Source: Rhizobium sp. CCGE531 (GTDB lineage Bacteria > Pseudomonadota > Alphaproteobacteria > Rhizobiales > Rhizobiaceae). Taken from it: a DNA stretch of 64,000 bases. Positions 7,252 to 24,500 of this stretch are shown here, piece by piece. Within the stretch, counting starts at the first letter, position 1. Every line of letters begins with the position of its first letter. The position numbers and the translations under genes were made by a program. Location: assembly GCF_003627795.1 (NCBI RefSeq), contig NZ_CP032685.1, positions 1,178,001 through 1,242,000 of the forward strand, read 5' to 3'. The notes under the pieces are model-generated. The model saw nothing but the letters and a program-made list of their open reading frames with translations. It made no database searches and had not been told where the DNA came from.

Positions 7252-8760
7252 ATGACGTATTTTGTTTCTGGGAAGGGGTTGTCTCACTTCGAAGGTCGGC
7301 AGTTATTCATCCAACATAGAGGCCAATATTCGAGAATTTCCATCCACGCTCGTGCGGGAGCAATAGCCATGGAAGCGAATTGCTGGGTGCAGTACTCGGG
7401 AGAGGTTGCCGAAAATCTGAAAGAGGAGATCGCGGTTGCACTGGCAAGGGAAGGGATCGCGATCGTGCCACCCGGTGACAGCGATACTGGGTGTTTGGGG
7501 ATATTTTTCATAGCCTTTCCCACGGAGGGCGCGAAATTTCCATTTCGCGCCAATGAAGACCATGTGATCGCCGTTGTCATGGCATCGAGCGGTTCCTCAC
7601 AACTGGAAGGCTGGGATCTGCTGTTGGCGGGAGCCGCCGACGTGCTCTACTGGACTGACCTTGACAAGGTCGCTGTACAGATAAAGGCGCGTTTCCAACG
7701 GAAGTTGTTCGTCGATCAGCTCTTCGAGACGTCCGGTTTGGGCGACGTTGTGGTGGGAATTAGCCGAACGTGGCGCAGCCTTCTGCGGGACATCGCTGAA
7801 ACCGCCCATTTTGGCGACACGCCGATCCTGTTGATGGGAGAAAGCGGCACGGGTAAGGAAGTCACGGCCCGGCTTATTCACGAGCTGGATCCTCGCCCTC
7901 AAAAGCGCGATATGGTGATCCTCGATTGCTCGACCGTCGTTCCCGAATTGTCGGGAAGTGAATTTTTCGGCCATGAGCGTGGCGCCTTCACCGGCGCGCT
8001 GAACGAACGTCATGGTGCATTCGCCTTGGCGGATGAAGGTACCCTGTTTCTCGACGAGGTCGGCGAACTTCCTCTTACGCTGCAAGCTCAACTCCTGCGT
8101 GTAGTCCAGGAGCGCAGCTATAAGCGGGTGGGCGGCAGCACCTGGCACCGCACGCGCTTCAGGCTGATATGCGCGACCAATCGCGATCTTGCCGACATGG
8201 TCCAGAAAGGGACCTTCCGCGCTGATCTGTATTTTCGCATTGCGGGCTTTGTGACCCGCCTCCCCCCGCTTCGTGAGCGGACCGAAGACATTATCCCCCT
8301 CGCGCGTTACTTCATTCGCAGGATGTCTGGTTCAAAGCGTCCGCCGGTGCTCGACGATGCCGTTTGCCGTTACCTCATGGAGCGGAGCTATCCGGGCAAT
8401 ATTCGTGACCTGCAGCAGGTCATCGCGCGCCTGCTTTATCGTTGTGCCGAAGACGGCATGATCAGCATCGGCTATATCCCGCGCAACGAGCGCCCGGCCG
8501 ATTTCTCCAAACTCCAGGATTGGCTGGATGATAATTTCGAGACCCTGATCCAGCGGGCGGTGCTGCTTGGTGTCGGGCTCAAGGAAATCGGGCGTGCCGC
8601 CGAAGATTGCGCCATTCGCTGTGCGACGCGCCTTGAGAATGGCAGCCTGCAGAAAGCGGCGCAACGGCTTGGCGTCACGGATCGAGCCTTGCAGATCCGG
8701 CGAGCCAATTCGCGCGACCTCACGGATCGCCGAATTGGCGAGGTCCGGCCGCTCAACTAA
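7252..8760 (+). CDS. Sigma-54-dependent transcriptional activator with pseudo-receiver N-terminus
   Basis: A 502-residue bacterial enhancer-binding protein. The AAA+ domain (about 165-400) has Walker A GESGTGKE (196-203), the sigma-54 contact loop GAFTGA (244-249), Walker B GTLFLDEVGE and RADLYFRI. A C-terminal Fis-type helix-turn-helix covers about 475-495 (LQKAAQRLGVTDRALQIRR). The first 160 residues look like a receiver-type fold (AVVMASS, then LLLAGAADVLYW) but lack an obvious phospho-acceptor Asp, so activation may not be by phosphorylation. It lies convergent to a six-gene operon whose promoter, like that of the divergent 18153 gene, is a near-perfect sigma-54 element, so it is the likely cluster-specific activator. 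The start codon is uncertain because the ribosome site is weak. Confidence 0.92.
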   Translation: MTYFVSGKGLSHFEGRQLFIQHRGQYSRISIHARAGAIAMEANCWVQYSGEVAENLKEEIAVALAREGIAIVPPGDSDTGCLGIFFIAFPTEGAKFPFRANEDHVIAVVMASSGSSQLEGWDLLLAGAADVLYWTDLDKVAVQIKARFQRKLFVDQLFETSGLGDVVVGISRTWRSLLRDIAETAHFGDTPILLMGESGTGKEVTARLIHELDPRPQKRDMVILDCSTVVPELSGSEFFGHERGAFTGALNERHGAFALADEGTLFLDEVGELPLTLQAQLLRVVQERSYKRVGGSTWHRTRFRLICATNRDLADMVQKGTFRADLYFRIAGFVTRLPPLRERTEDIIPLARYFIRRMSGSKRPPVLDDAVCRYLMERSYPGNIRDLQQVIARLLYRCAEDGMISIGYIPRNERPADFSKLQDWLDDNFETLIQRAVLLGVGLKEIGRAAEDCAIRCATRLENGSLQKAAQRLGVTDRALQIRRANSRDLTDRRIGEVRPLN

Positions 8761-8848
8761 GTGTTTCCCAGGGGCATTACGCCGATCACCAAGCATCGGC
8801 GTTGCAGCTGCCGAACGGCCAGGGCAATGTCGTCGATTCTGAACGAAC

Positions 8849-8881
8849 CCGGATAGCGGCAGGCCCCTCACCGCTATCCGG
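8849..8881. terminator. Bidirectional stem-loop between convergent genes
   Basis: CCGGATAGCGG (8849-8859) pairs perfectly with CCGCTATCCGG (8871-8881) across an 11-base loop. It sits between the stop at 8760 of the plus-strand activator and the stop at 8900 of the minus-strand operon, where a shared terminator is expected. The T-tract is poor (AATTTGAG), so termination may need Rho or be partial. Confidence 0.65.
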
Positions 8882-8899
8882 AATTTGAGCAGCGTCCTT

Positions 8900-11695
8900 C
8901 TACTGCAAGCTATCGAAGCGACGCAGGTTGTTCTGGCGCATGACCTTGATCAACATTGTGGCGTAGTCGGGACCCGTCGCATATCCCGCCTTGTGGATTT
9001 CGCGTGCGAACGCTTCCGCATCATCTTTGACGCTGAGCGCCTTGGCATACCGCTTGTTGCGCAGGAAGAAGCGCGCATGTTCGGTGATGCTCTCCTCGAA
9101 GCTGTTATATTTGGCGAAGGCAGCCTGGATGGTGATCCATTGACCATTGACATATTCCTTGGTCGGCACGGTTACGCTGCCAGCCGGGCCTTTGCCCTTG
9201 ATGCCGAAGAGATTTTTGGCCGAGCCGATCGTATGTTTACCCCAACCCGTCTCGACGATCGCCTGAGCTACCGTGACGGACGCCGGCACTCCGGTAGCGG
9301 CCATCGCCTTGCGAGCCCTTTCCCCTACAAACTCTATGAACTCGGCATGGCTGAGCGATTTCAGGTCGCTGGGTTCGCCTGACGGCACCGGTTGAGGCGA
9401 TGGCCCCGGGCCGGACGAACCGTGCGCCTGCAGGAAGCTAGCCCCTTGAAGACGCTCCTTCCAATGCGTGATGGGTACATAGTTGTGGCGACCATCCTTG
9501 GAGGGCTGGACGACGGCGTTGGCAACATGTTTGTTCCGCAACGATTCCGCAAGCTTGGCCGTCGGCGACCCCTTGATGTAGTAGATGTAGCAACGCGCGC
9601 CCGCACGCGCTCTGGCCCAATCGGCCCAGAAACTGTCGTCGCCGCTATTATATGTGCAGTCGAACCCCCAGCATTCGCGCAGATTCGCCAGGGCCTTGTC
9701 ATTCCCGCCGGCGATGCGGCGCATCGGCGAGCCGCCACCGCTATGACAGGCGAGGATCAGATTGCCGAGCGCCGACGGCACGCCCTGCCCCAATACTCCC
9801 AGTACTTGGGCAAGGAACTTGTCCAATCCGCCTGCCTTGACAAGAGTTCCGGCCTCCGACCGCGCACCCAGCGTCGGGGCGACCAGCACGATATTGCGAC
9901 CGCTCTCGTTCACGCCTTCGCGGAAGGCGCCATAGGGGACGCGAGCTGCATTCCAGTACCGGTCGATGGCGAGCCGACGGCTGTTGTCGCCCTTATGTCC
10001 ATGTAGCCACAGGACGATGTCCGTGCTGCGGCCGCTGACGAAGCCGTTGGGAACGAAGATGCCGGTCATCGGCTCGGCCTTGATGCCGAACTTGTCGACG
10101 ATGGAAAGATCGATCCTGGCATAAAGCGTTGTGCGTGGCGGCGCGCGCTCGGTCTTGATCACCGAGGGCACGGCGACGTGAGGCAGCGGCACGACGGAGG
10201 GAACGGGGCCTGGAGAAGGCTGAGGTTGGGGTTGGGGTTGGGGCTGCGGCTTGATGGATCCGCCCACGTCTTCGGCGCGGATGATGCCATAGAACTTGGC
10301 CCCTTTGAGCCGGCCCTTTGCATCAATCGGCACTTTGACCATCAGCACGGTGCCGTTGCTGCCTTTATTGCCGCCGATCGCCAGCAGATGATCTGACCTG
10401 ACGGCCACAACCACATCGCAATGGCCGGGGTCGCCAGGCTTGACGCTGTCATAGGTGACCGGCTTGTCACGCCAATTGCAGATCAGGTCGCCCACGCGCG
10501 GCGCGATCTCGGTGGGGCGGTAGGCCTTGAAGGGATTGGCGTTGTTTTCGGCGCGGTTCTTGCGCGCGGCAGCAAAATAGATCGAATGGGAGGCCGCATA
10601 TTTAAAGGCGCCGCCAGCGCCAGCCTTGCGCATTACCCAGCTGATGAATGCCGCGCTCCAGTAATGCGCCTTCTGGAAGGCCGGCGAGGCCAACTGGGCG
10701 GTGGTGTAGCTGATGCCAAGCCCGGTCTTCCAGTAGTCCTGAAGCATGGGCAGCGCCCGGGGCTCCGTCTCGGAGAGCTTGCCCTTGTTCCAGAGGGAGT
10801 ACTGCTTTCGGGCGATGCTTGCCGCATTGGCCGCAATTGTAGCGGCCGGCAGCGGGGCTGGACCGGGAGCAGGCGCGGGTTTCCTCCTTCTCGGCGCCGG
10901 TCGGCTGCGGCGCCTTAGTGGATGATAGGCTTCGATGTCGAATTCCAGTTCGCCCGCTGCCGCGCCGTCAGCAGGCCCTGCCGTGGCGTCCGCCGGAGGT
11001 GCGTCAGGCGGCGACGGAGCTGGTTCCGCGCCGGGCGCTGCCGCCGGGGCGGGTGGTCCCATGGCGCCGGCGCTTCCCGCACCCTGTCTAAGCGCAGCCT
11101 GCGTCTCTGGTCCGACCAGGCCGGTGACGGGCAGGCCTTGCCGCTCCTGGAAGGTGCGGACGGCGCTGCGCGTGGCCGCCGACATGTTGCCGTCGACAGG
11201 AAGGCGCAGGCCGAGCTGATCGTTGAGGCTGGACTGGATCCAGCTCACGAAATCAGAGGGCATGCCGCCATCATAGGCTGTTGCCGGGTCGAGGGCCGCT
11301 CCGCTCCACGGATTGCGCCAGCCGCCATGGCCGCGACCGAAGTAGCGTTTGCCGTAGCGTCCCGTCCAAGGATGGCCCTGCTGTCCATCGGTCGTCGGGA
11401 ATGGCCGCATGCTGCCTCCGAATGAGCGGAACGATGAGGGAGCCTGATCACCGAAACGCCCCTGTGCCGTCCGGAACGGCGGACGCGAAGCGGATCCGCG
11501 AAGGGACGTGCGGGATGGCATGCGATAGCGTGGGAAAAGTGTCGCTGCGCGGCCGGCGCGCGCCGAGCGTGTCATTCCACCGCGGCGGCGGAACTCCTCC
11601 TCCATTTCTGCTTCGTTCTCGAACGCATGCTCGAAAGTTTCGAATTCCAGTTCCGAGCCGAAAGGCTCGGGATTGAACCGCAACAATTTTTCCAT
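8900..11695 (-). CDS. Four-domain peptidoglycan-targeting protein (PG-binding, DUF2272, hydrolase-like, glucosaminidase)
   Basis: A 931-residue protein, last gene of the sigma-54 operon. In order: an acidic aromatic-Glu N-terminus (EFETFEHAFENEAEMEEEF); an Arg/Gly-rich linker; a PG_binding_1 domain at about 155-200 (SLNDQLGLRLPVDGNMSAAT); a second acidic patch; a DUF2272 domain at about 288-475 (YWSAAFISWVMRKAG, then GHCDVVVAV); a Pro-Gln repeat near 485; an alpha/beta-hydrolase-like domain at about 520-745 (WLHGHKGD, CHSGGG near 649, GRHNYVP); and a C-terminal FlgJ-type glucosaminidase from about 780 (VTVAQAIVETGWGKH). No classical signal peptide is visible. The ATG at 11695 has AGGAG eight bases upstream and is preferred to the GTG at 11704. 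It probably binds and cuts cell wall; its export route is unknown. Confidence 0.85.
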   Translation of the reverse strand: MEKLLRFNPEPFGSELEFETFEHAFENEAEMEEEFRRRGGMTRSARAGRAATLFPRYRMPSRTSLRGSASRPPFRTAQGRFGDQAPSSFRSFGGSMRPFPTTDGQQGHPWTGRYGKRYFGRGHGGWRNPWSGAALDPATAYDGGMPSDFVSWIQSSLNDQLGLRLPVDGNMSAATRSAVRTFQERQGLPVTGLVGPETQAALRQGAGSAGAMGPPAPAAAPGAEPAPSPPDAPPADATAGPADGAAAGELEFDIEAYHPLRRRSRPAPRRRKPAPAPGPAPLPAATIAANAASIARKQYSLWNKGKLSETEPRALPMLQDYWKTGLGISYTTAQLASPAFQKAHYWSAAFISWVMRKAGAGGAFKYAASHSIYFAAARKNRAENNANPFKAYRPTEIAPRVGDLICNWRDKPVTYDSVKPGDPGHCDVVVAVRSDHLLAIGGNKGSNGTVLMVKVPIDAKGRLKGAKFYGIIRAEDVGGSIKPQPQPQPQPQPSPGPVPSVVPLPHVAVPSVIKTERAPPRTTLYARIDLSIVDKFGIKAEPMTGIFVPNGFVSGRSTDIVLWLHGHKGDNSRRLAIDRYWNAARVPYGAFREGVNESGRNIVLVAPTLGARSEAGTLVKAGGLDKFLAQVLGVLGQGVPSALGNLILACHSGGGSPMRRIAGGNDKALANLRECWGFDCTYNSGDDSFWADWARARAGARCYIYYIKGSPTAKLAESLRNKHVANAVVQPSKDGRHNYVPITHWKERLQGASFLQAHGSSGPGPSPQPVPSGEPSDLKSLSHAEFIEFVGERARKAMAATGVPASVTVAQAIVETGWGKHTIGSAKNLFGIKGKGPAGSVTVPTKEYVNGQWITIQAAFAKYNSFEESITEHARFFLRNKRYAKALSVKDDAEAFAREIHKAGYATGPDYATMLIKVMRQNNLRRFDSLQ

Positions 11696-11706
11696 GGCTG
11701 TCACTC

Positions 11707-12804
11707 CTAGATTAGTAAGGTTGATTGCTGGATTTCATGTCGTGTGCGAGCTGTGACGAGCAGACGGAGCGCATCGAGCCCCACTTCGATGTCTGTCGGG
11801 GTATGGCTCGCGTTCAAAAGGAAGCTGATAAGCATTTCGCCGCCACGATGCGCACGATGAAGCACCGTGGCCACGCCCGACCATTCGAGCGCTGCATGCA
11901 GTCCGGCGGCCGACACCTGCGCCGGCAGGACCAGGGTCTGGATCGGAAAGCAGCCGCCTTGGGCTGTAAGGCCGATCGTCCGCAACCCCTGCCGAAATAG
12001 ACGAACCAAGTGGAGCAGGCGTTTGCGAAGCGATTCACCGCGCCGTGAATTGACCGCCAGCGCCAGGCGCGCCGCCGCGATGTCCGCTTCCGAGGGCGGG
12101 CTGCAATGGACGCGCGTCTTGCTGACCGCCTTGAAGCGTTCGATGATCGGCCGGCTGCCGCCGATCAAGGCCATGGGCACTCCAAAGCCCTTGGCGAGCG
12201 ACGCTACGCGTATGAGGTGGGTATCGGGCAATCCGAACCAGGCCGGCACGCCCGCGCCACCGAGACCCAAAGGGCGGGCGGGGCTGGGATATTCGCCCAG
12301 GATGCCCAATGCCTGCGTATCGTCGAGAATCAGCCATCCTCCGCCCTGCCGGACCAGACCGAGATAGTCAGGCAAGGGAGCGGGCTTTCCGTTAAGGGGG
12401 TTCAAACCATCGGCAACCACGAGCGGCACGCGCTTCACCGGCCGCCGAGCGAGCGACGCTCGAAGGGCGCCGACGTCATGGGAGCAAAACGTCCGTACCG
12501 GTACGCCGCGCCCGGCAACGCGCTCGACGCCCCAGCGGGCGATGGCATAGGCGCCGCTATCGATATGCACCGTGATGTCATCGTCAGCGAACATGTCGAA
12601 CAGGTCCCAGAACAAGTGAAGGGTCGAAGGCCCGACGGCGACGGCCCCGCAGCCCAGAAAGCGAGCGAGGGCGCGTTCGAGTTCGTCGGTCTCCGGGGAT
12701 GGACCGAGCGCCGCTGGGCGCCCGGTCGTCAATTGTCGCCATGGCCGGAGCGAGGCATGTTCATGGCGCAGGCCCAGATAGAGGGCCGAAGTGAAGTCGG
12801 GCAT
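11707..12804 (-). CDS. PLP-dependent AONS/KBL-like enzyme
   Basis: A 365-residue fold-type I PLP enzyme closest in pattern to the alpha-oxoamine synthase group (AONS, KBL, CqsA) or class I/II aminotransferases. Visible marks are VVADGLNPLNGKPAPL, WLILDDTQALGILGE with the PLP-contacting Asp, and the Schiff-base Lys in VASLAKGFGVPMALIGGS. The bio operon has its own bioF further right, so this copy is not needed for biotin. It lies in the sigma-54 operon, 9 bases after the 12814 gene and 11 bases before the peptidoglycan-hydrolase gene. It may make a small amino-ketone product or modify a component of the system; the substrate is unknown. Confidence 0.75.
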   Translation of the reverse strand: MPDFTSALYLGLRHEHASLRPWRQLTTGRPAALGPSPETDELERALARFLGCGAVAVGPSTLHLFWDLFDMFADDDITVHIDSGAYAIARWGVERVAGRGVPVRTFCSHDVGALRASLARRPVKRVPLVVADGLNPLNGKPAPLPDYLGLVRQGGGWLILDDTQALGILGEYPSPARPLGLGGAGVPAWFGLPDTHLIRVASLAKGFGVPMALIGGSRPIIERFKAVSKTRVHCSPPSEADIAAARLALAVNSRRGESLRKRLLHLVRLFRQGLRTIGLTAQGGCFPIQTLVLPAQVSAAGLHAALEWSGVATVLHRAHRGGEMLISFLLNASHTPTDIEVGLDALRLLVTARTRHEIQQSTLLI

Positions 12805-12813
12805 GACCCTGCT

Positions 12814-14790
12814 CTACTTATCGGCGAGATATTTCTGGGCGGGCCGCACCGGCGGCAATTCCTCCATCGCGCTGGTGGTAGGCGTCCCGATGGCACGCAT
12901 GCCTCCGTGCCGCCGGCCGAGAGAGGCACTGCGCTGGGCCACGAGGCGCCGCTGCAGCAGCTTGGACGGCTGAGTGAGCCTGCCCATGCCGTCCTGTGCC
13001 TCGGTGGACTCGGCAGCAAGATCGACACCTGTAACCGCCTGATAGCCATGCAGGTAACGCTGGATCTCGGGCTTGCAGCTCCGGGCCCAGTTCTTGGCCT
13101 GCTCCTCGATATTATTGATGTCGACCCAGTCCCCGTAACGGATGGAGAGCAGGATGCGCTCGCCCGTCACCGCCAGTTCGTGGAAATGGGTGATCGAAGT
13201 ATCGGACCAGCCCTGGAGCTTCTTCATGCAGTCGACCGCACCCATCCATCCTTCCTGGTAGGGCACCATGTAGCGGCCACGCAGAAACTCGCGCATCTCT
13301 GGCCGTGCCAGCATCCACTGGTTGATCAGCATCTCGCCGCGCGCCGTCCAGGTGAGGTCACCGAACTGGTTATGCGCACCTTCCGCCAGGATGAGATGGA
13401 CTTCTCTCAACGCATTCAGGAGCGGGAACGCGTCGGCGATGACGGTGGTGTCGCGATCCTCCCGGTAGAACATGCTGGTGCGATAGAGCAGGTTGTGGAA
13501 GGCCTCGATGAATTTCGAGCGGGTATCCGCGGGCGCCATGCCGCTTACCGCCTTACCCTGCAGGACAAGGCCATAGTGGTGCTGGTATTCATAAGCGCGG
13601 CGCGAAACCGTGAGCCGGTTATGCTCGTCCTGGATATAGCCCCAGAGAAGATTGTTGAGCGGACGCAGCGGATCGAATTCGAGCTCGCCGAGCGGGTCAT
13701 GCGGCGAACTGCGGCGGTTCTGGAAGCGCAGAGCGATGGCATTGATCGTCTGCACAAGCATGCCTTCCTCCAGCCAATAGGACCAGATCAGCTCCAGCAT
13801 GCTGGGGGCAGTGAAACGATGCCCGAGAATACCCTCGCTGAAAGGCGACGTTTCCGGCTTCGCAACTTCATCTTTCTTCAGGCTGATAAAGGCGCGTACA
13901 ATTCGCTTGAGATAAGGCAGAGCGACGGGCTGCCCATCGGAGGTCCTAAGATAGCTGCGAAGGCGCTTTTCCAGGTCACGGGCGGTGATACCTTCCTGAT
14001 CGTTGCGCATCTCCTCATGTTCGGCGGTAAAGAGATCATCCCTTTCGCCGAAAGCATCGTGCTCGCGGATCGTCGCACCACATTCCAAAGTAAGAAAAGC
14101 CTGGGTGGCGAGCTTGAGAACGCCGTAGGCGTGCGGGCCGAACACGCCGAGCGGCCGCTGTTTTTCTTCGACATGGACATCCAGACTGCGGAGCTCATGG
14201 TCCACTTTCTGCACCACCTTGTCGAAGCCTCCCTTGTCGACCAGCAACGTGTTGATGAAACGCTGATAGCGGGGAAAGCTCATTGCGGATGTGCGATTGC
14301 GGATCGCCGCCCAGAGGGCCTGATCGAGCGTCGACGAAGAGGCCGTCCGCTGCAACGCCACCTTCACCGTCTCAGGCCTGGCCGAGATCTCGATGTTACT
14401 GCCGCCCCTCAAGGCACGGGGAACCTGAACCCCACCGAATTGGTCGTCGCAGTCGTCCTTGAGTGTCATCTTGACGGCAAGAACATACGGCCCTTCCGAA
14501 AGATAGGAAGGCAATCTGAACCGATCCGGGTTTTCGAAAGCTTTCAATCCCAATTCATCCAGGGGACGATCACCTTCGCCAAGGTTGTACTCATAGTCAA
14601 AACGACCATAAAATTCAGGATGTTTGCTTAGATCTACAAATCCTCCTTGGCCGATATCCGGGTGGTGCCGAAATTGCGGATGATGCAGCAAGACGTAAAC
14701 ATCAACCTCCGAACCCTCATGGAGTTTCGTGGGTGAATAGTAGATATGGCAGGTCCATTCGTCCTGTATTTTAGAAACCGCGGGTGTCAT
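12814..14790 (-). CDS. Large protein of unknown function in the sigma-54 operon
   Basis: A 658-residue soluble protein that I do not recognise. The N-terminal 100 or so residues look beta-rich (TCHIYYSPTKLHEGSEVDVY, then GPYVLAVKMTL) and may form an immunoglobulin-like or C2-like domain. The remainder is largely helical, with many aromatic and charged residues, and ends in a basic tail. No signal peptide, membrane segment or nucleotide loop is seen. The ATG at 14790 is preceded by GGAG and follows the upstream stop by 16 bases; a longer frame to 14868 would overlap that gene and is less likely. Its position between a metalloprotease-like and a PLP-enzyme gene suggests a structural or effector role in the same pathway, which is inference only. 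Confidence 0.7.
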   Translation of the reverse strand: MTPAVSKIQDEWTCHIYYSPTKLHEGSEVDVYVLLHHPQFRHHPDIGQGGFVDLSKHPEFYGRFDYEYNLGEGDRPLDELGLKAFENPDRFRLPSYLSEGPYVLAVKMTLKDDCDDQFGGVQVPRALRGGSNIEISARPETVKVALQRTASSSTLDQALWAAIRNRTSAMSFPRYQRFINTLLVDKGGFDKVVQKVDHELRSLDVHVEEKQRPLGVFGPHAYGVLKLATQAFLTLECGATIREHDAFGERDDLFTAEHEEMRNDQEGITARDLEKRLRSYLRTSDGQPVALPYLKRIVRAFISLKKDEVAKPETSPFSEGILGHRFTAPSMLELIWSYWLEEGMLVQTINAIALRFQNRRSSPHDPLGELEFDPLRPLNNLLWGYIQDEHNRLTVSRRAYEYQHHYGLVLQGKAVSGMAPADTRSKFIEAFHNLLYRTSMFYREDRDTTVIADAFPLLNALREVHLILAEGAHNQFGDLTWTARGEMLINQWMLARPEMREFLRGRYMVPYQEGWMGAVDCMKKLQGWSDTSITHFHELAVTGERILLSIRYGDWVDINNIEEQAKNWARSCKPEIQRYLHGYQAVTGVDLAAESTEAQDGMGRLTQPSKLLQRRLVAQRSASLGRRHGGMRAIGTPTTSAMEELPPVRPAQKYLADK

Positions 14791-14806
14791 GCTCGTTACT
14801 CCAGCG

Positions 14807-16114
14807 TCAGATTGCAGGGATGGGTTGTAGTTGTCGGCCGGGCAAGGCTGTCCAGACCGGGACGACATTCAATGTGCTGCCGATGGCCCAATGGGTCAGC
14901 AGCCGCGCCAGGAGCTCGCTCTCGTCCTCCGGGCCGAGATGTCCGTCCGCCTTGGCCTGGCCGATCACCGCGAAGACGAGCGAGGGCGGTGCCCGGTACA
15001 TCTGGGCCGGCTCACGCCGCCACGCCTCGAACAGAGCGCCGAGCCGTTCGGGACGGCGGTCTCGCGCCTCCAGCGCCTCGGCGAGCGAACGTCCTTTGAG
15101 CGAAGGCGGCCGGTGACCGGCAAGGAGTGCGGCGAAAGCAGGTAGGCTTTGCTCCAGCCGTACGATCAGTTCTCGCTGGGAGGCCGAGAGCCTGTCGAGC
15201 GGATAGTAGCTTTCCCAGACACGAGCCACGCGCTGCCATTGCGGGTGGGGGTTGAGCGCGTCGCCGATCGCACAGCTCAGCTTGACCCGTATCCAGGGCA
15301 TCGGGTGCGGATCGTCGACATTCAGCCGGAACACGAAGGGCCGCGGCAGCCCGACCACGCCGATCAGGCCCAGTGTCGAGACAACGCCGAGGCGGGCGAT
15401 CGACCAGAAATCCGAGATCACCTCGGAGATCCAGCGCTCCCACAGGTTCCAGACCAGCGGATCGTGGGATTTCGAGCGCCTTTCGCGTATCGCCGGCCTG
15501 AGCGAGGCGACGAGGCCGAGAAGTTCGGCACCCTGATGCCCGACCTCGTGGATCAGCGAGGAGGAGATGCCGCTGCTGATCATGCGCTCACGCGGAATGC
15601 GGATGATCGAGACCGGGTTCTCACCGCCACCAGGAAGGCGCGTGCGTGCCCGCCTGATGGCTGCCCCCACGCCGCGATCGAGATAGCAGATCACCGGCGG
15701 CGCCTGGTAATAGCCCGGCAGCGCCAAGGCGTCGGAAGACACAGCGTCGAGGCCCGAAAGCCAGACGCCAAGCTCGTTCTGTCCGCGCTGCGCGAGCACA
15801 TGGTCGAACAGATCGAGCTGCGAGAGCACTGCGTTGAAGCGCAGCCTGAGAAAGACGAAACGTTGCTGTGCGTCGGCCGCCGGGACTTGCCTGCCCGGGC
15901 CATTGACCCAGGCGATGAATTGGCGAATGCGGCGCTTCAGCTCGCTGCGCCCCTTGGCGAGGAAGCGTTCGATTGCGAGCTGCGCAGTGGGCAGGAAGCT
16001 TGCCGCCGGCACCATCGGCTGGTTGAGCACGAAGGGCTTGAGCCGGGCCAGGCGCGTGAGCAGGGCTCTCGCCTCTTGTTCCAGCATCCAATGCGCAAGT
16101 GGAGCGGCGGACAT
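14807..16114 (-). CDS. Zincin-like putative metallopeptidase
   Basis: A 435-residue protein with a HEVGH zinc-binding motif at residues 189-193 (SSSLIHEVGHQ) and, about 38 residues later, EVISDF (Glu231, Asp235). This spacing fits a gluzincin third ligand. I know of no named family that matches. There is no signal peptide; a moderately hydrophobic stretch after the active site (VVSTLGLIGVVGL) may be buried. I chose the ATG at 16114 because it follows the upstream stop by five bases. It may process the glycine-rich proteins encoded next to it or be an exported effector. The fold and catalytic activity are inferred from the motif only. Confidence 0.7.
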   Translation of the reverse strand: MSAAPLAHWMLEQEARALLTRLARLKPFVLNQPMVPAASFLPTAQLAIERFLAKGRSELKRRIRQFIAWVNGPGRQVPAADAQQRFVFLRLRFNAVLSQLDLFDHVLAQRGQNELGVWLSGLDAVSSDALALPGYYQAPPVICYLDRGVGAAIRRARTRLPGGGENPVSIIRIPRERMISSGISSSLIHEVGHQGAELLGLVASLRPAIRERRSKSHDPLVWNLWERWISEVISDFWSIARLGVVSTLGLIGVVGLPRPFVFRLNVDDPHPMPWIRVKLSCAIGDALNPHPQWQRVARVWESYYPLDRLSASQRELIVRLEQSLPAFAALLAGHRPPSLKGRSLAEALEARDRRPERLGALFEAWRREPAQMYRAPPSLVFAVIGQAKADGHLGPEDESELLARLLTHWAIGSTLNVVPVWTALPGRQLQPIPAI

Positions 16115-16119
16115 GGCTC

Positions 16120-16947
16120 TCACACTCCAACGAGAATGATCGTGTGGCCGTGCCGGACCCACTTGCCGCTTCTCGCAGGCCTGCGGACCGGCGCGCCGCC
16201 CATTGCTGGGACGAGACCTGGTGCCTTGGCCTGGACTGCGGCCGCAAGGGCTGCGGTGACGCCGCTGCCGTTAACCCGCCCCGGCGATGCTTGCACGAGG
16301 TTCTTGACCGCCTCGCCTGAAAGGTCGACGAAGCGCCGCGCCACCTCGAATTCACGGTCCTCATTGCTCAATCCCTCCAGTTCCAGCCCGAAAGCGCGGC
16401 CCGCAAGCGACGCGGCCTGACTGCCGAGGCGCGAGCCCTCGGGACCACCGAGTGCACCGCCCAGGGCCGCGCCGGCCTGAGGCAGAAGCTTACGCGCCGC
16501 GCCCTTGAGCATGCTGACCAGCGCCTGGCCGTCACTCGACTTGATGAAACCGCCCAGTGCGTGGCCGGCCTTCTTGATCAGCCCGCCGAGGAAATATTCG
16601 AGCTCGGCCTCGCTGCCGATCTCGAGCAATTCGCTGGCGAGTTCCATATTCTCCATCTCGGTGAAGACCCCCTCGGCTTCGCCGCTCAACGTCTCCATCT
16701 CGCCGAATTCGAACTGTTCGGCTTCAAGCTGCCGTTCCTGCGAGCCGAGCTCGAGGCGCACGCGGTCCAAGTCATGCATTGAATTTCTCCATAGGTTTCC
16801 GCCTGGTTGGCTGGAGGCCGGCGACCCGCAGTGACACTGCCCCAGGGGCTCGCCACACTCATCGCAGAGCACGCTCCCGCCACCCGACAACCTTGCCCTG
16901 CGGCGGGCACGGAAATTGCCATCACGAGGATTTCGCGGCGTGACCAT
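16120..16947 (-). CDS. Glycine-zipper protein with Cys4 zinc-ribbon-like N-terminus
   Basis: A 275-residue paralogue of the 16979-17758 protein. It has a basic N-terminus, a Cys-rich knuckle CDECGEPLGQCHCG (four Cys), an acidic stretch around QFEFGEMETL, and then the shared core: ELEYFLGGLIKKAGHALGG, a run of small residues (GAALGGALGGPEGSRLG), NEDREFEVARRFV, and the C-terminal signature SGKWVRHGHTIILVGV. The ATG at 16947 has a strong AAGGAGG ribosome site; a second in-frame ATG (Met-His-Asp-Leu, near 16779) also has GGAG upstream, so a shorter form without the Cys knuckle is possible. It is the second gene of the operon, 31 bases after the first. No characterised function. Confidence 0.75.
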   Translation of the reverse strand: MVTPRNPRDGNFRARRRARLSGGGSVLCDECGEPLGQCHCGSPASSQPGGNLWRNSMHDLDRVRLELGSQERQLEAEQFEFGEMETLSGEAEGVFTEMENMELASELLEIGSEAELEYFLGGLIKKAGHALGGFIKSSDGQALVSMLKGAARKLLPQAGAALGGALGGPEGSRLGSQAASLAGRAFGLELEGLSNEDREFEVARRFVDLSGEAVKNLVQASPGRVNGSGVTAALAAAVQAKAPGLVPAMGGAPVRRPARSGKWVRHGHTIILVGV

Positions 16948-16978
16948 CACAGCCTCCTTTTTTGAATGCTTCGGGACC

Positions 16979-17758
16979 TCAGATACCGACGATGACGATG
17001 TTCTGGCCTTGGCGATGCCAACGCCCGCTAAGCGGACGATGATGACGGGCGCCGCCGGGCAGCAGACCCGGGGCAAACCTGCCTGCGGCTTCGGTGACAG
17101 CGGCCTTGGCGGCCGCAGCGGGATCGCCGCTCAGGGGCGAGGTGAGCACTTTGTTCACCGCGTCGCCGGCCATTCGCACGAAGTTCTTGGCGCCCTCGAA
17201 TTCGCGATCCTCATCCTCCATCTCGGCCTCCAGGCCGAGCGCGTTGCCGGCCGCCGAAGCAAGGCCGCTGCCGATCTGCGCGCCAAGCGGTCCGCCGACA
17301 AGACCGCCGAGCGCCCCGCCAGCAAGCGGAAGCGCTTTTTTTGCCGCGCTCTTCAGAAAGCCCCCGATGGCCTGGCCGACCGGCGACTTCACCACCTGGC
17401 CGATGGCGTGGCCGGCATTCCTAATGAGATTACCGAGAAAGAGATCGAGCTCGGCCTCATTGGTGACTTCGAGCAGTTCGCCTGCGAGTTCCATCACCTC
17501 GGCTTCGCCGAGAGCCTCGGATTCGGCTTCCCACTCGTATTCGGCCCCCCACTCGGCTTCCGACTCGCGCTCTCCCTCAGCCTCCCATTCGTTTTCCGCC
17601 TCGTTTCCCCATTCCGCCTCTGCTTCATGGCCCCACTCAGCCTCAGCCTCCGCCTCACCGCCCCATTCGAACTGCTCGCTCTCGAAAGCTTCGTTCTGCG
17701 GGCTCAACTCGAATGCATCCCTTTCGAATGCTTCCTTCTCGAAACCGTTCATCGTCAT
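16979..17758 (-). CDS. Glycine-zipper protein with acidic aromatic-Glu repeats
   Basis: A 259-residue protein, first gene of the minus-strand operon. The N-terminal 80 or so residues are a low-complexity acidic region of Phe-Glu and Glu-Trp repeats (AEAEWGHEAEAEWGNEAE and similar). The core follows: ELLEVTNEAELDLFLGNLI, a Gly/Ala-rich zipper-like run (LAGGALGGLVGGPLG) that could pack or insert in membranes, and EDREFEGAKNFVRMAG. It ends in SGRWHRQGQNIVIVGI. The start at 17758 lies about 50 bases downstream of the predicted sigma-54 transcription start and has a GGAG site; a longer frame to 17875 would begin upstream of the promoter and is rejected. The family resemblance to the next gene and to 18153 is clear. 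The function is unknown. Confidence 0.78.
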   Translation of the reverse strand: MTMNGFEKEAFERDAFELSPQNEAFESEQFEWGGEAEAEAEWGHEAEAEWGNEAENEWEAEGERESEAEWGAEYEWEAESEALGEAEVMELAGELLEVTNEAELDLFLGNLIRNAGHAIGQVVKSPVGQAIGGFLKSAAKKALPLAGGALGGLVGGPLGAQIGSGLASAAGNALGLEAEMEDEDREFEGAKNFVRMAGDAVNKVLTSPLSGDPAAAAKAAVTEAAGRFAPGLLPGGARHHRPLSGRWHRQGQNIVIVGI

Positions 17759-17818
17759 GCTCTCCAGTTTTGAAACTCGATCTCGCCGGCGCGACGCCTG
17801 CGATTGCAAGGAGAGCTT

Positions 17819-17834
17819 CGCAATCTCCGTGCCA
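17819..17834 (-). promoter_or_regulatory. Sigma-54 (-24/-12) promoter of the six-gene operon
   Basis: The minus strand reads TGGCACGGAGATTGCG, matching the sigma-54 consensus TGGCACG-N4-TTGC at every fixed base, with the required ten bases between GG and GC. Transcription would start near 17808, about 50 bases before the ATG at 17758. Confidence 0.88.
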
Positions 17835-17877
17835 GATCTAACTACTTGATTTTCTTGATTCCGATTTCCGACCACAC

Positions 17878-17923
17878 CGAAACCGCTTTCGCTACCGGTG
17901 AAAATCAGCGGAATTTCGCGAAA
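17878..17923. promoter_or_regulatory. Candidate enhancer sites for the sigma-54 activator
   Basis: Two inverted repeats with the same half-site lie between the divergent promoters: CGAAA-N4-TTTCG at 17878-17891 and the perfect palindrome TTTCGCGAAA at 17914-17923. They are about 45-100 bases from the minus-strand -24 element and about 170-215 from the plus-strand one, a usual range for activator binding. That the 7252 protein binds here is inference. Confidence 0.5.
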
Positions 17924-18091
17924 GTATTTTCGGCCAAGAAGAGGAGAGGAGCGGATCTACAACGACGACAGGTGAGTCTTCGTTCATCGCAGGGGCATCA
18001 GCCGAAGGAACTGATTTTTATGACTGATTTCAGGAGAGCGGCTGATCCTACGCCCCCTTCTTTCACCGTCATGCGGTTCAGCCCCTTCGGT

Positions 18092-18107
18092 TGGCACTGG
18101 GCTTGCA
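18092..18107 (+). promoter_or_regulatory. Sigma-54 (-24/-12) promoter of the divergent gene
   Basis: TGGCACTGGGCTTGCA matches the consensus except for one weakly conserved base (T for G after TGGCAC) and has correct GG-to-GC spacing. The predicted start is near 18118, about 35 bases before the ATG at 18153. Confidence 0.85.
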
Positions 18108-18152
18108 CGAGGGATTGCGGCCCGCAACGCATCCAACCACGGAGAAACTGAG

Positions 18153-19460
18153 ATGACGATCGCATTAGAGCCGTCCTATGGAAGCCACTCCTTGCGCCAC
18201 CCGCGGATCCGTGTGATCGACGAGGCGCTGAGTGAAGCGGAGGTGTTCGAACTCGGCATTCGCCTTTCGCGCAGCGGATCGGAGGATGCGTTTGATCATC
18301 TCCTCGGCGCCACGCTCGCTCATGCCGCCGCCGGCTCCGGCGGGATGCTCAGCCCGCGGCTCGGTGCGGCGATGGGCGGACTTCTCAAGAATATTGCCCG
18401 CCGCCGCCTGCTGAGTGGCAGCCCGGACAGCGAGTTCGACATGGAATTCGGCGAGACCGACCGCCGCCGCCGCGCATTGGCCGAAAGCCGCCGTTTCGTA
18501 CGGCTAGCAGGCGAGGCCGCCCGCCACGCGATTGAGGAATTCGGTGGACAGGGCGGCCACCGCGAAGCGCTCGGCGCCCTTGCGGCGGCGGCGGAGCTCT
18601 ATGCGCCGGCCCTTGCAGCGGAACTCGAATCTGAAGGCGAATGGGAAAACGGACGGATGCCCTCGTTCGACCCTTTCGAATATGATCCGCAGATGGAGTA
18701 CTTCCTTGGCGGCCTGGTGCGCAGCGTCGGCAAAGTGGTCAAGAAGGTATCCAACGTCGCCAGCGGCGTAGCCAAAACTGTCGGCCGCATCCCCGTGGTC
18801 GGCGATATCGCCCGCATGGGCGCCAATGCGGTCCGGCTCACGGCCGGCCCGGCAGCCATTGCGCTTGACGCCGGTGTGAGGCTGGCGAAGGGTCAGCGCC
18901 TCGACCGTGCCCTGACTGCAGCGGTCAAGGGCCAGATCAATGCGGCACGCGATCAGCTTAGACTCGCCGAGATGGTTGCCCCCTTCGTGCCAGGCATCGG
19001 CACCGGCGTTGCGGCCGCTCTTGGTGCTGCCAACGCACTTGCCGCCGGCAAGCCTATAACGCAGGTAGTATTAGCCGCGGCGCGCAGCGCTGTTCCCGGA
19101 GGGGCCATCGCCCAGGCCGCCTTCGACGTCGCGCTCAACCTCGCTGGCGGCAAGAACATTGAACAATCACTGCTGGCCGCAGCACGCGAGCGCCTGCCCG
19201 GCGGCCCCGCGGCAAAGGCTGCGTTTGACGGAGCCTTGGCTCTCGCGCAAGGCAAGAAGCTGCAGGACGCGGCTTTCGTTGCCGCCGGCCGCGTTTTGCC
19301 GCCATCGCCATATGCGGCCGATGCCCTTGCTTTCGTCAAGGGCGTTGCCAATGGCCAGAATATTCAGAACGCCGCCCTTTCGGTTGTTGGAAAGCGCGCG
19401 CTTGGCAGCATTCGGAGTCAGGCAGCACGTGTCAATCCCACTCTGAGACGCTTTGGCTAG
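18153..19460 (+). CDS. Two-module glycine/alanine-rich protein with tandem C-terminal repeats
   Basis: A 435-residue relative of the two small proteins of the divergent operon. Module 1 (about 25-150) carries LSEAEVFELGI, AFDHLLGATLA, a Gly-rich run, and RRRALAESRRFVRLAGEAA. A short acidic linker with DPFEYDPQMEYFLGGLV starts a second copy of the core. From about residue 270, four imperfect repeats of roughly 34 residues follow, with patterns like VPGGAIAQAAFDVALNLAGG and LPGGPAAKAAFDGALALAQG. The shared C-terminal W-R-G-I-VG signature is absent. GGAG lies eight bases before the ATG, and the gene has its own sigma-54 promoter. It may be a membrane-active or scaffold component; the function is unknown. 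Confidence 0.72.
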   Translation: MTIALEPSYGSHSLRHPRIRVIDEALSEAEVFELGIRLSRSGSEDAFDHLLGATLAHAAAGSGGMLSPRLGAAMGGLLKNIARRRLLSGSPDSEFDMEFGETDRRRRALAESRRFVRLAGEAARHAIEEFGGQGGHREALGALAAAAELYAPALAAELESEGEWENGRMPSFDPFEYDPQMEYFLGGLVRSVGKVVKKVSNVASGVAKTVGRIPVVGDIARMGANAVRLTAGPAAIALDAGVRLAKGQRLDRALTAAVKGQINAARDQLRLAEMVAPFVPGIGTGVAAALGAANALAAGKPITQVVLAAARSAVPGGAIAQAAFDVALNLAGGKNIEQSLLAAARERLPGGPAAKAAFDGALALAQGKKLQDAAFVAAGRVLPPSPYAADALAFVKGVANGQNIQNAALSVVGKRALGSIRSQAARVNPTLRRFG

Positions 19461-19593: not shown

Positions 19594-20412
19594 GGGCACT
19601 GTAAACTTAACGCTCTGAAAACAAGATCTGGGAGTGAGGCTTTGGTCATGCGGTGTGAAGACGTGTGATTTGGCACCAAGTATCCAAGGCTGCTGCTCGC
19701 AGTTCGCAATGGTGAGCGGATGGAATATCGTGGCGGGGAACGTGAAAGAGGTTGGCAATCGAGTCGTGGATGGAAACGAAACGCTGAAGCTGTCGCGCTG
19801 ACTTGAAGCGCTTCATGATCCTCTCCTGTCGTCGGACGGGTTGATGAGAATTCTCCGCCCGATTGTTCAGGCCCTTGTGCGAGCGATGCTCGACACCTGG
19901 CATGATCTCCCGCTTCGCTGCGCCATAAGACCGGAGCTTGTCGGTGATCATCACACGCGGCGTGTGGCCTTGCCCTTTCAGAAGCTTTCGCATCAAGCGC
20001 TTGGCCGCCTTGGCATTGCGACGGCTTTGCACCAACACGTCGAGAACTAAGCCGTCCTGATCAACGGCGCGCCAAAGCCAGTGTTTCTTCCCACCGATGG
20101 TGATGCCGACCTCATCAAGGTGCCATTTGTCACCGAGCCTGCCGGCCGATCGCTTCCGAATATCGTTGGCAAAGTGTCTGCCGAATTTCTCAGCCCACAA
20201 TCACACGGTCTGGTGAGAGACGATGACGCCACGAGCTGCCAGCATATCCTCGACCATCCGCAGGCTGAGCGGAAACCGGAAATAGAGCCAAACAGCATGG
20301 GCAATCACCTCCGCCGGAAATCGGTGGCGACGATAAAGAGGATCACGGGTAAATCTGGTCATCCCACCAGATCCCATATTTTGATCGATGCTCGGTTAAC
20401 GTTACGGTGCCC
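19594..20412. mobile_element. IS6-family insertion sequence, about 819 bases
   Basis: The ends carry imperfect inverted repeats: left GGGCACTGTAAACTTAAC from 19594, and right, read inward on the minus strand from 20412, GGGCACCGTAACGTTAAC. The length and single DDE transposase fit IS6. The eight bases outside each end differ (ATTGTGTT and TTGGACCT), so no target duplication remains and the copy is probably old or rearranged. It separates the sigma-54 cluster from the redox cluster. Confidence 0.75.
19646..20362 (-). pseudogene. IS6-family transposase interrupted by an in-frame TGA
   Basis: Read from the ATG at 20362, the frame runs through the usual N-terminus (FPAEVIAHAVWLYFRFPLSL, then DMLAARGVIVSHQTV) and meets TGA at 20201-20203, where relatives have Arg (CGA to TGA). 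It then continues in the same frame through the DDE domain: WHLDEV, MITDKL and NNRAEN provide the catalytic Asp, Asp and Glu. The total would be 238 codons. The downstream part could restart at a TTG, but it would lack the DNA-binding N-terminus, so I treat it as inactive. Confidence 0.82.
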
Positions 20413-20643: not shown

Positions 20644-21528
20644 TCAGTCAGTTTTGCTTTGCGACAGCGATATCGGGCGCTGCCGGACAAACCACGGTAT
20701 GATCTTAGAACGAGTCTTCACATACTCAGCGTAGTCTGGCCCCCACAGCTTGATGAGATTGCGCTCCAGGAAATAGATCCCGATCATGATGTAGATCGTG
20801 AGGCCGATGGCGAACACGAGATGTCCGACGGTCATGGCGGGCGTCACCCAGAAGGCGACGATGAAGCCGAGGAAATCGGGGTGACGGGAATAATACCAGA
20901 GCCCCTTGATGGTGATTGGCCAACCAACCTTGTAGTATTCCGGCGTCGTCTGAGGTGCCTTGGTATAGGGTCGGTCTTCGAGGAAATCGATCACCTGGTC
21001 GACTCCAAAAACCTTCCAATGGCCGACGAGGATCGTCGCATAGAGGACCGTCAACCAACCGCCAAACGAAATCCACGCCAGAGCGGGTCGCCAGAAGGGG
21101 TCCTCAACATTCCAGATAACGTTCGGTATCGGCCGCCATTGCCATTGCAGCAATGCGAGGGCGGCGATTGCGACGACGATGTAAGTGGATCTTTCCAGAT
21201 GTTTCGGGACGATTTTCGTCCACCAGTTCTTGAACGTGGGCCTGGCCATTCCCGAATGCTGCAAACCGAGAATGAACAATAGGCCGACGTTGATCGCCAA
21301 CGCGGTCCAGAAAGGCTCGACCGTTCCCATGTCGATCGATTTCCAGGGAAAGACATTCCCGAACCTGCTGTTGATAATCGGTCCGAAGTAGTTGCCAACG
21401 AAGCCGACAGTGTAAAGCAGGATACCCCAGACGCCGATGATGTAGATGAAGCTTCCATAGAGGAAGGCAAAAATCTTTCGGCGCCTAAGCTTGATGTCAT
21501 CTACGCTTGGTTCCAGAAGCTGGCTCAT
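20644..21528 (-). CDS. mddA: MddA-like membrane methyltransferase (isoprenylcysteine methyltransferase fold)
   Basis: A 294-residue integral membrane protein with about six or seven helices. The C-terminal ICMT/NnrU-type motif is YYSRHPDFLGFI, then YFLERNLIKLWGPDYAEY. The central HSGMARPTFKNWWTK and ERSTYIVV segments resemble methanethiol S-methyltransferase MddA, which makes dimethyl sulfide with S-adenosylmethionine. The ATG at 21528 has a GGGGGAAA site; the longer frame to 21585 is not needed. It is the last gene of an apparent operon, 69 bases after the GMC-patatin gene. Assignment to MddA rather than a general isoprenylcysteine-type methyltransferase is probable but not certain. Confidence 0.72.
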   Translation of the reverse strand: MSQLLEPSVDDIKLRRRKIFAFLYGSFIYIIGVWGILLYTVGFVGNYFGPIINSRFGNVFPWKSIDMGTVEPFWTALAINVGLLFILGLQHSGMARPTFKNWWTKIVPKHLERSTYIVVAIAALALLQWQWRPIPNVIWNVEDPFWRPALAWISFGGWLTVLYATILVGHWKVFGVDQVIDFLEDRPYTKAPQTTPEYYKVGWPITIKGLWYYSRHPDFLGFIVAFWVTPAMTVGHLVFAIGLTIYIMIGIYFLERNLIKLWGPDYAEYVKTRSKIIPWFVRQRPISLSQSKTD

Positions 21529-21597
21529 TTCCCATTTCCCCCTGTGCGGTGAGACTAAAACTCCACAAATTGCAGGCCGACTCAAAACGCCGCGGCC

Positions 21598-24500
21598 TCA
21601 AGCCTCGAAGATCGCCCTGCCGGCGCTTTGGCCGAGCGATCGGTAACTTTCCCATTGATCGTCGTCGAAGAACTGGTCGATGGTCCCCTGGTTGGGAAAG
21701 CTTGGATGCGTCGCGGCGTAGTTCTGGACATCGGCAGGGATTGCCGGCGCCAGATTGGCCTTGATCAGCAGGACCCAGGTGTTCCTGTCAGGCTCGTCGC
21801 GATAGCGGATGCATGCCAGCGCCCCACAGGCCGGGCCATTTCTCTTGAGCTGATCGAGGCTGCCAAGCCTTTCCGGATGGGCAACAAGGCTTTTGATCCA
21901 GGCAGGGATGACCGTCGGCGCGGCGGCATCGTCCAAGCCTTGCCAGGGATTTGCCACAGATGCGCCAGCACCGGGATCGAGCCAGACAAGCTCGGCATCA
22001 AAGTCGAGGCGCACCTGCCGCATCAGAATGGCGAGCTCACCCATCTCATACTGCGCGTCTTCAGATGCATCGACGGCGATGATGAACGGCAGCCGTCGCC
22101 TGATGAGCTCATAAAGGCCTGTCGTATCAAAATGTCCGCCGTCGCTGAGGTACCAGCGTCTGGCGGACGGACCTTCGAAATAGGCGCGCCATTCGTTGAG
22201 CAGCATGGCCTGGACGGCGAGGATGGTTGATGGCAGCGACTTTATTCTTTGCCACAGATTGGGAGGATATCGCCCGGGACGCCCGCCGGCATTGATGCCG
22301 CTATTCCACCAGTATCCGAGGCGCACATTGAGCAATCCGAGCAGGAGCGACATCGACAGGCTGCTGCTGCGCCCGGCGCCGGTCGAGACTGCGGCAGCCG
22401 AGATCGCCAGCCAGCGCCCGAGCGTCAGCTGCTCGACGGTCGCCGTATCGGCAGACCATTGGCCAAGCACATGGAACTTGTGCGGATCCGGCGCCACGGG
22501 CAGTGCCCGGACAATGGCCTTGTTGGCTGCGAGACGATCGCCGCGGGCCTCCCAGACGGCATGGTATTGCTGGCCGACGCTGATGCCGCCCGGACCGAGG
22601 CACATGGGCAGGCCCTTGTTCTGACGGAGCTGTCGGCCCGAGATGTGATCGACCGTCTGATTGATACAGACATTGATGAGATGCAGCGGCCCGCCATTGT
22701 CCTCCGGGTGGTAATCATCAAGTGACAGGTCGTCATTGTCGTCGGACACCTGGATCGGAACCGGCGCATCCGTGCCAGTCGGGTGGACACGCCAGCCGTT
22801 CGATGCGCCGAGAAAGGTGCGTGTCAGCTTCTGCGTCAGCGACTGCTGCAGGGACGACAGATTGAGGAAATTGATCGCCCGTCCGGCCGCAACGGAAACG
22901 GCAAGCGCCGCAAGCGTCATCCATATGCCGGTCGAAAGCCCCGGCTTGAAGGCACTATGCGCCAGGATATCCGCCCCAAGAAACAACAAGGCCGCAAAGG
23001 AAAACGCCAGAACCCCGATCAGAAGCTTGCTGCCGGTCTTCCCCCCCAGTTGGGCATCATCGCGCGGAATGAGGCCGATGACGATCTTGCGCAGCAAGAG
23101 AAGCAGCGGCGAGGCGGCCAGCATCGATCCCGCCATGATCGGACTGTAGTCCTTCGCCGCAAGGCTGCGGGCAATGCTGTCGATGAATACGAAGCCCACC
23201 GTTGCAACGAATATCAAGAGAGCGCTGCCGAGCGCGCGCGACAACCTGTTGCGGTAGAGCGTGGCAAAGCCGCCGCCAGGCAGAACATTCCAGCGCACGC
23301 CTTCTTGCCAGAACCAAGCCAGCATCAGGACAGCCGTCGCGATGAGGGCTATGCCGCTAAGAGTGCCAACGTCGATCGCTGTGATCGCGCAGCCGAGAAG
23401 TACCGCCCAGCCGAGGACGCCGAATCGCGAATAGGGTCGTCTCGAGCCTTCATTGGGGGTTAGCCAGTAGCCGATGGATATCGGCAGTACGGCGAGAAGC
23501 AGCACTGCCGCCGACGCCAGCCACCAGGGCGAGACGGGGACGCCGGCGATGCGCCAGCCGCTGGCTGCGACGACCGGCGCCGCCACTTCCGATATCCATC
23601 TGAGCGCGCCAAGACCGCCGAGCAGCAGCACGCCGACGCAGAAGAGCACCGCCGCCAGGTTTCTGGCGATGATCGCAAGGTCCGTTTCAACGTCGGAACG
23701 GCCGCCACCGATGAGATAGTCGGCATGGCGGCGCAGCCACCAGATTTCCGAGGAATTGGGATCGGTCAGCGTCGCCTCGATGCGATCGACCTTGTCGGGA
23801 GTATCGTCAGTCATCCGCGTATAGAGCCGCCCGAGGAAACCGCCGATATAACCGCCGCCCGATGCCGAGGACATGAAATCGACGCGTCGCAGGATTTTCG
23901 CGGCAGCCAGCGCCTGCAGAACGCCAAGCGCATAGGTGGCGCTGCGGATACCGCCACCGGACAGAGCCAAGCCGATGGTGTCTTTCGGGAGCGAGGTCGG
24001 CGCCAGCACGTTTCGATCTCTTGTCTCATCGAGCTGGCCGCGGCGCCGATGGATTGCGGCAGCTTCACGCTGCTCCATTTCGCTGGGATAGGCCGAAGAG
24101 TCCGCCACAATCACGTCGGCGGCCTTCTCAGCGATCATGAATACCGGCGTGACGAGAAAATAGCCCGGAATTCGCGGAAACACCGACGCGTCGACAACGC
24201 GCAGGTTGCGAACACCATGAACCCGAAAGCTGCTGTCGAGCACCGCGCCCTTGTCACGCAGGGCCTTGACGCTCGGTTGCCAACGGTCCGAACCCATCCG
24301 GCAGGTGCCGCAGGCGTGATGTCCCCAGGCCTCGTCTTGCACCCATTGCCTAAGCGCCGATGGACTATCCGCCACCCCCCTGCCCGGCTGGATCTCTGCC
24401 TTCATGCCGGTAATCTTGCCGTTGATCTCGCGCACACGCCCCACGGTCTCGCTGACCGCATCGAGGTCTAAGCGATATCCGGAAGGTCCTTCGGAAAAGG

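Follow-up and report, generated by a model that had tools for sequence, protein, structure and literature searches.

A predicted sigma-54 regulon with its own activator, a conserved orphan core and exchangeable lytic enzymes in Rhizobium sp. CCGE531

In a 64-kb stretch of contig C2 of the 7.14-Mb genome G000 of Rhizobium sp. CCGE531 (the window, whose positions are used as coordinates; relative loci carry L-numbers), we analysed a block of genes, A to H, at 7252-19460. What can be read from the DNA is an operon, -24/-12 promoters, a candidate enhancer, a conserved core and variable lytic enzymes without recognisable export signals. The operon comprises six tightly spaced genes on the minus strand, B (16979-17758), C (16120-16947), D (14807-16114), E (12814-14790), F (11707-12804) and G (8900-11704), with gaps of about 2-31 nucleotides when the starts are guided by homologues. 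The likely starts obtained in this way are 16114 for D, 16947 for C, 17758 or 17752 for B, the first gene, and 11695 or 11704 for G; the open reading frames (ORFs) of D and E extend to 16162 and 14868, and E is likelier to start at 14790 than at 14868, Met27 being an invariant column aligned with the starts of other homologues. H (18153-19460, plus strand) diverges from the operon, and A (7252-8760, plus strand) lies at its far end. The first-pass annotation of this DNA had described seven genes, whereas there are eight counting both H and A; the ORFs lie where it had placed them. E is 100% identical over 684 amino acids to the 1.46-Mb plasmid record of Rhizobium sp. CCGE532.

Both transcription units are preceded by predicted sigma-54 elements facing apart, as had been noticed in the first pass. 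The element of the B-to-G operon, at 17819-17834 (minus strand, 10/11), has one mismatch to TGGCACN5TTGCW and is kept in L008 and L009, and that of H, at 18092-18107 (plus strand, 11/11), is the sole perfect match in the 64 kb. At one mismatch or fewer, the window has six sites compared with 2.07 expected, a number reached by none of 100 shuffles. Transcription starts predicted near 17808 and 18118 would give leaders of about 35-56 nucleotides. When genomes were scanned with an alignment of E, 179 relatives could be confirmed, of which the best 80 loci were analysed; 79 of these were assigned to nine phyla. The promoter test covered 71 of 81 loci (window included), those without D or with too little upstream DNA having been dropped, and the best site upstream of the operon scored at least 10/11 in 32 loci (0.32 expected) and at least 9/11 in 48 (3.4 expected), as judged by shuffles that kept base composition only.

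By aligning the intergenic region of the window with those of L008 and L009, we found two conserved inverted repeats, CGAAR-N4-YTTCG, which had been absent from the first-pass list of features. These candidate dyads, to which no strand is assigned, lie at 17878-17891 (CGAAACCGCTTTCG) and 17919-17932 (CGAAAGTATTTTCG), 41 bp apart, and are probably the enhancer of A. The exact form CGAAAN4TTTCG occurs twice in the 64 kb, both times between the divergent promoters, compared with 0.13 expected, and none of 100 shuffles reached two. A tandem pair with 41-43 bp spacing lies upstream of D in 63 of 73 loci (window included, and loci without D or with short upstream DNA dropped, as also in a looser test of 68 loci). 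When spacings of 30-54 bp were allowed, 183,595 upstream bases contained 68 pairs, 56 of them at 42 bp, while 1,288,488 other bases contained two, and these outlying pairs are cluster sites too: the upstream pair of L010, one base past the limit, and a second copy in L031. For the 59 pairs with a site scoring at least 9, the distance from the end of the pair to the -24 element is 30-34 bp in 24, 41-45 bp in 18, 52-56 bp in 6 and 88-167 bp in 11, the first three classes being steps of about one helical turn. The spacing is 40 bp in L010, L011 and L030 and 32 bp in L027; L035, from the actinomycete Rhizocola hellebori, has two imperfect dyads 32 bp apart, which came to light only on a subsequent, less stringent inspection. 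L044, L065 and L071 have a single dyad, and L038 and L069 have none in the stretch examined, the DNA of L038 stopping some 120 bases short of the first gene.

The exact tandem pair (spacing 36-48 bp) occurs once in the host genome, at this locus, and the reversed control gave none. At 40-43 bp, it was found once in 18 of 21 relatives drawn from the 80 loci, twice in one (the genome of L031) and not in two, and the reversed control was 0 in all 21; since 19 of the 21 were picked for holding the pair, only its absence elsewhere in each genome is informative. L031 has two tandem enhancers in one cluster, at 7211 and 16053, the second of which stops some 110 bases short of the called start of an extra B/C gene in the same block. 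A thus appears to serve this block alone.

A matches PF00158 (E = 6e-55) and has the AAA+ region with GAFTGA and the C-terminal helix-turn-helix region of a sigma-54 activator, which bears out its first identification as such. Its N-terminal part, about 160 residues, shows no known family, and no Pfam match at E <= 1 was obtained for the first 173. GAFTGA or GAYTGA was present in 62 of 67 A proteins (window included) and was not found in those of L022, L028, L029, L031 and L071. Membership of A in the RtcR family, judged by a CARF sensor and the family score, was rejected: the NCBIfam model gave 274.5 bits against a cut-off of 650, in a match that starts at residue 159, beyond the N-terminus without a Pfam match. 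Of the 67 loci in which A was found, 66 have it in convergent orientation downstream of E, the exception being L012, where A (2344-3708, minus strand) lies upstream beside H and not at the far end of the operon.

rpoN was present in 40 of 41 cluster-bearing genomes examined, out of the 80 loci. In two of them the genome's only rpoN match lies within the locus itself: in R. hellebori (L035) at 5093 to about 6400 (minus strand), divergent from the operon, and in Palleronia pelagia (L026) at 16548-17822 (minus strand), adjoining A. The core-binding and DNA-binding domains of the Rhizocola RpoN match Pfam, and the activator-interacting domain was not called. A 2025 survey describes Actinomycetota as effectively without functional RpoN (PMC12316311), and an earlier survey describes Actinobacteria as without a sigma-54 system (PMC3162934). 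Two actinomycetes were checked here for rpoN. The one miss is Actinomadura KC216, whose L069 (1970-6200) is a copy of the core without A, a good promoter, dyads or an rpoN match in the genome, and is presumably under another promoter.

Because the promoter is conserved across phyla, the exact enhancer occurs once in the host, A is convergent and rpoN accompanies the cluster in nearly all genomes examined, we regard a self-contained sigma-54 regulon, as the first-pass annotation had proposed, as almost certain; both what that annotation saw and what it concluded were correct, and the case is stronger than it claimed. Activators of the RtcR, PspF and NorR type, to which A has sequence matches, serve one neighbouring operon and are the nearest known counterparts of the switch. 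They share with A the AAA+ region with GAFTGA, a dyad enhancer near a -24/-12 promoter and targets next door, whereas here the N-terminal sensor has no Pfam match, the dyads stand in tandem with a spacing that hardly departs from 42 bp, the operon controlled is a new one and in two relatives rpoN is part of the cluster. The switch itself belongs to a familiar type; the switched block matches no system that we could name from the family libraries or the literature searched, in agreement with the first impression that it has no recognised name. With the positions of the candidate enhancer, the promoters and the activator fixed at single-base resolution, the switch is now directly testable.

The core consists of B/C, D and E, often with F and an amidohydrolase, accompanied by exchangeable cargo enzymes. 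In a profile-free protein search of all ORFs (E <= 1e-6), E was present in all 80 loci, 78 had D, 74 had B/C relatives, and F and A were each found in 67; the two loci without D (L014, L036) end just upstream of E. An amidohydrolase gene clusters in 46 of the 80 and was not called in the window. With b for B/C copies and A' for convergent A, the most frequent arrangements are b-D-E-F-b-amidohydrolase-A' (21), b-D-E-F-b-A' (10) and b-D-E-F-amidohydrolase-A' (8).

E is an orphan with 3956 homologues at E <= 1e-3 among 7998 scored, and has an immunoglobulin-like domain (residues ~39-162) and a large helical domain (~183-650) of very high conservation. It has no match in Pfam, NCBIfam, PADLOC or PHROGs, and a scan of viral contigs found no relative. 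Its predicted model has a predicted local distance difference test (pLDDT) score of 78.5 and gave no convincing structural match, Foldseek returning 0 in the PDB at E <= 1e-3 and VIA rows covering mainly residues 36-294. D, a zincin-like protein with HExGH and ExxxD, has H189, E190, G192, H193, E231 and D235 invariant in 49 aligned proteins; it thus carries HExxH plus ExxxD, the gluzincin metalloprotease signature, and is predicted to be of that type, with no Pfam match. C and its paralogue B are glycine-zipper proteins whose N-terminus is acidic and whose helices are rich in glycine, with a C-terminal hairpin of conserved sequence GxWxRxGxxI; the predicted model of B has the helices and the hairpin at a mean pLDDT of 69. 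None of E, D and B/C reached the cut-off of a Pfam family, and B, C, D and E matched no NCBIfam family above cut-off and nothing in PADLOC. The label DUF697, given by one source to some B/C relatives, is not borne out by Pfam for B or C.

A profile built from the B/C alignment matches two stretches of H (E = 3.5e-5 and 3.6e-5), so H is indeed the divergent paralogue that had been suspected, albeit a distant one. Strong relatives of H diverge from the operon in five other loci (L008, L009, L012, L013, L029). Pfam hits of H and C that fell below threshold, NolX among them, were rejected. Adjoining the 3' end of H is an IS6-family transposase of 184 amino acids (19646-20200, minus strand), possibly a trace of movement of the block.

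F matches PF00155 and has the lysine expected of a pyridoxal-phosphate (PLP) enzyme, in likeness to the BioF/AONS type; K205 (the PLP lysine), D161 and Q164 are each present in 66 of 66 proteins. However, Gln164 stands where AONS enzymes have their active-site histidine, and the NCBIfam bioF model gave 70 bits against a cut-off of 426, far below it. Membership of F in AONS/BioF was therefore rejected.

The variable genes sit between E/F and A in the relatives. In the window, the cargo-type lytic enzyme is G, which combines an N-terminal EPEPF/acidic stretch with PG_binding_1, DUF2272 and glucosaminidase domains and matches phage endolysin families; an alpha/beta-hydrolase-like stretch was read by eye and has no database match. 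We scanned 101 ORFs, after amidohydrolase, B/C-like and short ORFs had been dropped and 15 near-copy loci left out of the cargo list. Among the 25 families listed of 34, PG_binding_1 was the commonest (36), with M20 peptidase (9), OmpA (8), trypsin-like (6), amidase_2 (5), M74 murein endopeptidase (4), glucosaminidase (3), DUF2272 (3), M23 (2) and weak GIY-YIG (2) matches, and single matches to GH25, muramidase, VanY, papain-type and LCAT. Signal-peptide-like starts, scored with a simple rule on hydropathy, occur in 1 of 99 cargo proteins compared with 42 of 530 other neighbours. An acidic-aromatic stretch in the first 200 residues was found in 53 of 100 cargo ORFs and 52 of 522 background ORFs (Fisher p = 9e-21); by this crude test, about half of the cargo has the common N-terminal stretch. 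Cargo also differs between close relatives: no common cargo was detected in 56 of 100 locus pairs with E 80-90% identical, compared with 1 of 58 pairs with E at least 90% identical. The cargo domains fit the cell-envelope or toxin/effector system that the first-pass annotation had considered, but do not prove it.

Polymorphic toxin and effector systems join a recurrent N-terminal stretch to exchangeable enzyme domains beside a conserved core, an arrangement that the block may resemble; here, in contrast, no immunity genes or secretion system were recognised, and a locus holds several full lytic enzymes.

The distribution of the block is patchy. In a co-occurrence check, which had been suggested at the outset and did not depend on the choice of the 80 loci, E, D and B/C were each found in 4 of 398 Pseudomonadota genomes, in the same four, the host among them; the island is thus patchy and its core inseparable in that sample. 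The tree of E mixes phyla, Pseudomonadota requiring 8 changes, of which at least 6 are forced by starred branches, and Nitrosomonas appears at several places. Both features fit horizontal transfer.

These results suggest that the block is a lytic arsenal directed at other cells, one that regulates itself and moves horizontally, a reading of the whole that we hold tentatively and rate a little short of an even chance. Regulation by sigma-54 is well supported by sequence; function and delivery are what we infer from the gene content. A would sense a signal through its N-terminal domain, bind the tandem CGAAR-N4-YTTCG dyads and open both divergent promoters. The acidic-aromatic N-terminus of the cargo may serve as a tag by which it docks onto the strongly basic D or F, or onto E (median isoelectric points are 10.4 for D, computed on its last 400 residues, 10.1 for F, and 5.9 for both E and B/C). 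The glycine-zipper proteins B, C and H may interact with the membrane and either let the enzymes through or burst it, and the product would most likely act on other cells, in competition or predation. Somewhat more tentatively, the block may represent a previously unrecognised class of mobile bacterial effector system in at least nine phyla, in which the core loads and delivers acidic-tagged lytic enzymes without a known secretion machine, and which carries its sigma-54 switch along with it, made up of activator, private tandem enhancer and, in host lineages without sigma-54, an rpoN of its own.

Several observations weigh against this reading. With two mismatches allowed, the window is not enriched in the sigma-54 motif (38 sites compared with 30.6), so the motif alone is weak evidence, a plain count of consensus sites was rejected as proof, and position and conservation carry the case. 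Ten of the 73 loci have no pair at 41-43 bp, 4 of the 63 pairs have no -24/-12 site scoring at least 9 within 260 bp, and the loose pair test found pairs in 47 of 68 loci but also in a fraction of 0.196 of shuffles. A was not found in 13 of the 80 loci; in the 12 of these other than L069, the DNA reaches no further than about 7 kb downstream of E. The acidic-aromatic test rests on crude ORF starts; a narrower PEPF-type pattern occurs in 30 of the 100 cargo ORFs compared with 33 of the 522 in the background, and a looser one in 46 of 100 and 154 of 522. Some of the 101 ORFs are not cargo, e.g., L012:18392-19042, which lies beyond the block, and the greedy gene call missed ORFs, which inflates the turnover figure. 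As weapons, M20 peptidases and amidohydrolases would be atypical. Nothing in the block was recognised as a secretion machine, a holin or an immunity gene, and none of the called neighbours, ORFs of at least 70 amino acids, was recognised as an immunity gene. Many loci are near copies (Janthinobacterium, Massilia), so the counts are not independent events, and some contigs may be mis-binned in metagenome-assembled genomes. Finally, the tree of E shows clustering of the phylum labels (13 changes compared with a shuffled mean of 16.9, and 0 of 200 shuffles as low), which indicates that descent contributes beside transfer.

Because immunity genes and a secretion machine were not recognised, programmed self-lysis and envelope remodelling are the main rivals. 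In the first, which we consider unlikely, B, C and H would be holin-like and the cargo endolysin-like, and a sigma-54 signal would burst part of the population and release its contents. Wall hydrolases without signal peptides, the endolysin matches of G, glycine-zipper proteins in the same operon and the lack of a recognised immunity gene would all be expected of it, and phage holin-endolysin cassettes likewise place such hydrolases beside small zipper-rich proteins. In contrast to those cassettes, the present block is under sigma-54 control and has a conserved D/E core, with E lacking a relative in viral contigs; moreover, proteases, M20 and GIY-YIG proteins and the AONS-like enzyme are not needed for lysis, and only 3 of 135 B/C proteins reach transmembrane-level hydropathy.

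An envelope remodelling or dormancy programme, in which A would sense a stress and the enzymes would then remodel the wall of the producer itself, seems rather improbable. Sigma-54 has been proposed as a controller of the bacterial exterior (PMC3162934), and the prevalence of PG_binding_1 in the cargo agrees with it. A patchy island with phyla mixed in its tree and exchangeable cargo would, however, be unusual for a housekeeping function, and the enzymes have no export signals.

Less likely still is a small-molecule or modified-peptide pathway, in which F and the amidohydrolase would make a signal or modify the C-terminus of B/C, with the other enzymes as accessories. It draws on the invariant PLP lysine of F, on a weak likeness of F to alpha-hydroxyketone autoinducer synthase (46.5 bits, cut-off 428) and on the conserved GxWxRxGxxI tail common to B and C. 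However, F was found in 67 of the 80 loci, and several of those without it, such as L018, L024, L073 and L082, have long flanks; F is therefore not essential, and D and E are the constant genes.

That the block is what remains of a phage tail, a contractile injection system or a defence island is highly improbable: apart from a weak tape-measure match of B in PHROGs (E = 3.5e-4), C, D, E, F and H match nothing there, a PADLOC scan of nine proteins matched only A, to RtcR-type models through its AAA+ region, and E has no relative in viral contigs, so that secretion-system and prophage identities were rejected after these three scans.

If the cargo of the proposed lytic arsenal is delivered to other cells, the block would represent a new way for bacteria to antagonise other cells and could supply multi-domain lysins. 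The family of E is large and unannotated, and with D and B/C it defines a cross-phylum module. The single case of Rhizocola suggests an explanation for the rare rpoN genes in Actinomycetota.

Beyond the transposase, two further minus-strand genes were noted in the window. The one at 20644-21585 encodes a relative of the methanethiol S-methyltransferase MddA (NCBIfam NF045656, 216 bits, below the cut-off of 270), and the one at 21598-26211 encodes a 1537-residue protein in which a GMC oxidoreductase is fused to the start of a patatin-like phospholipase domain.

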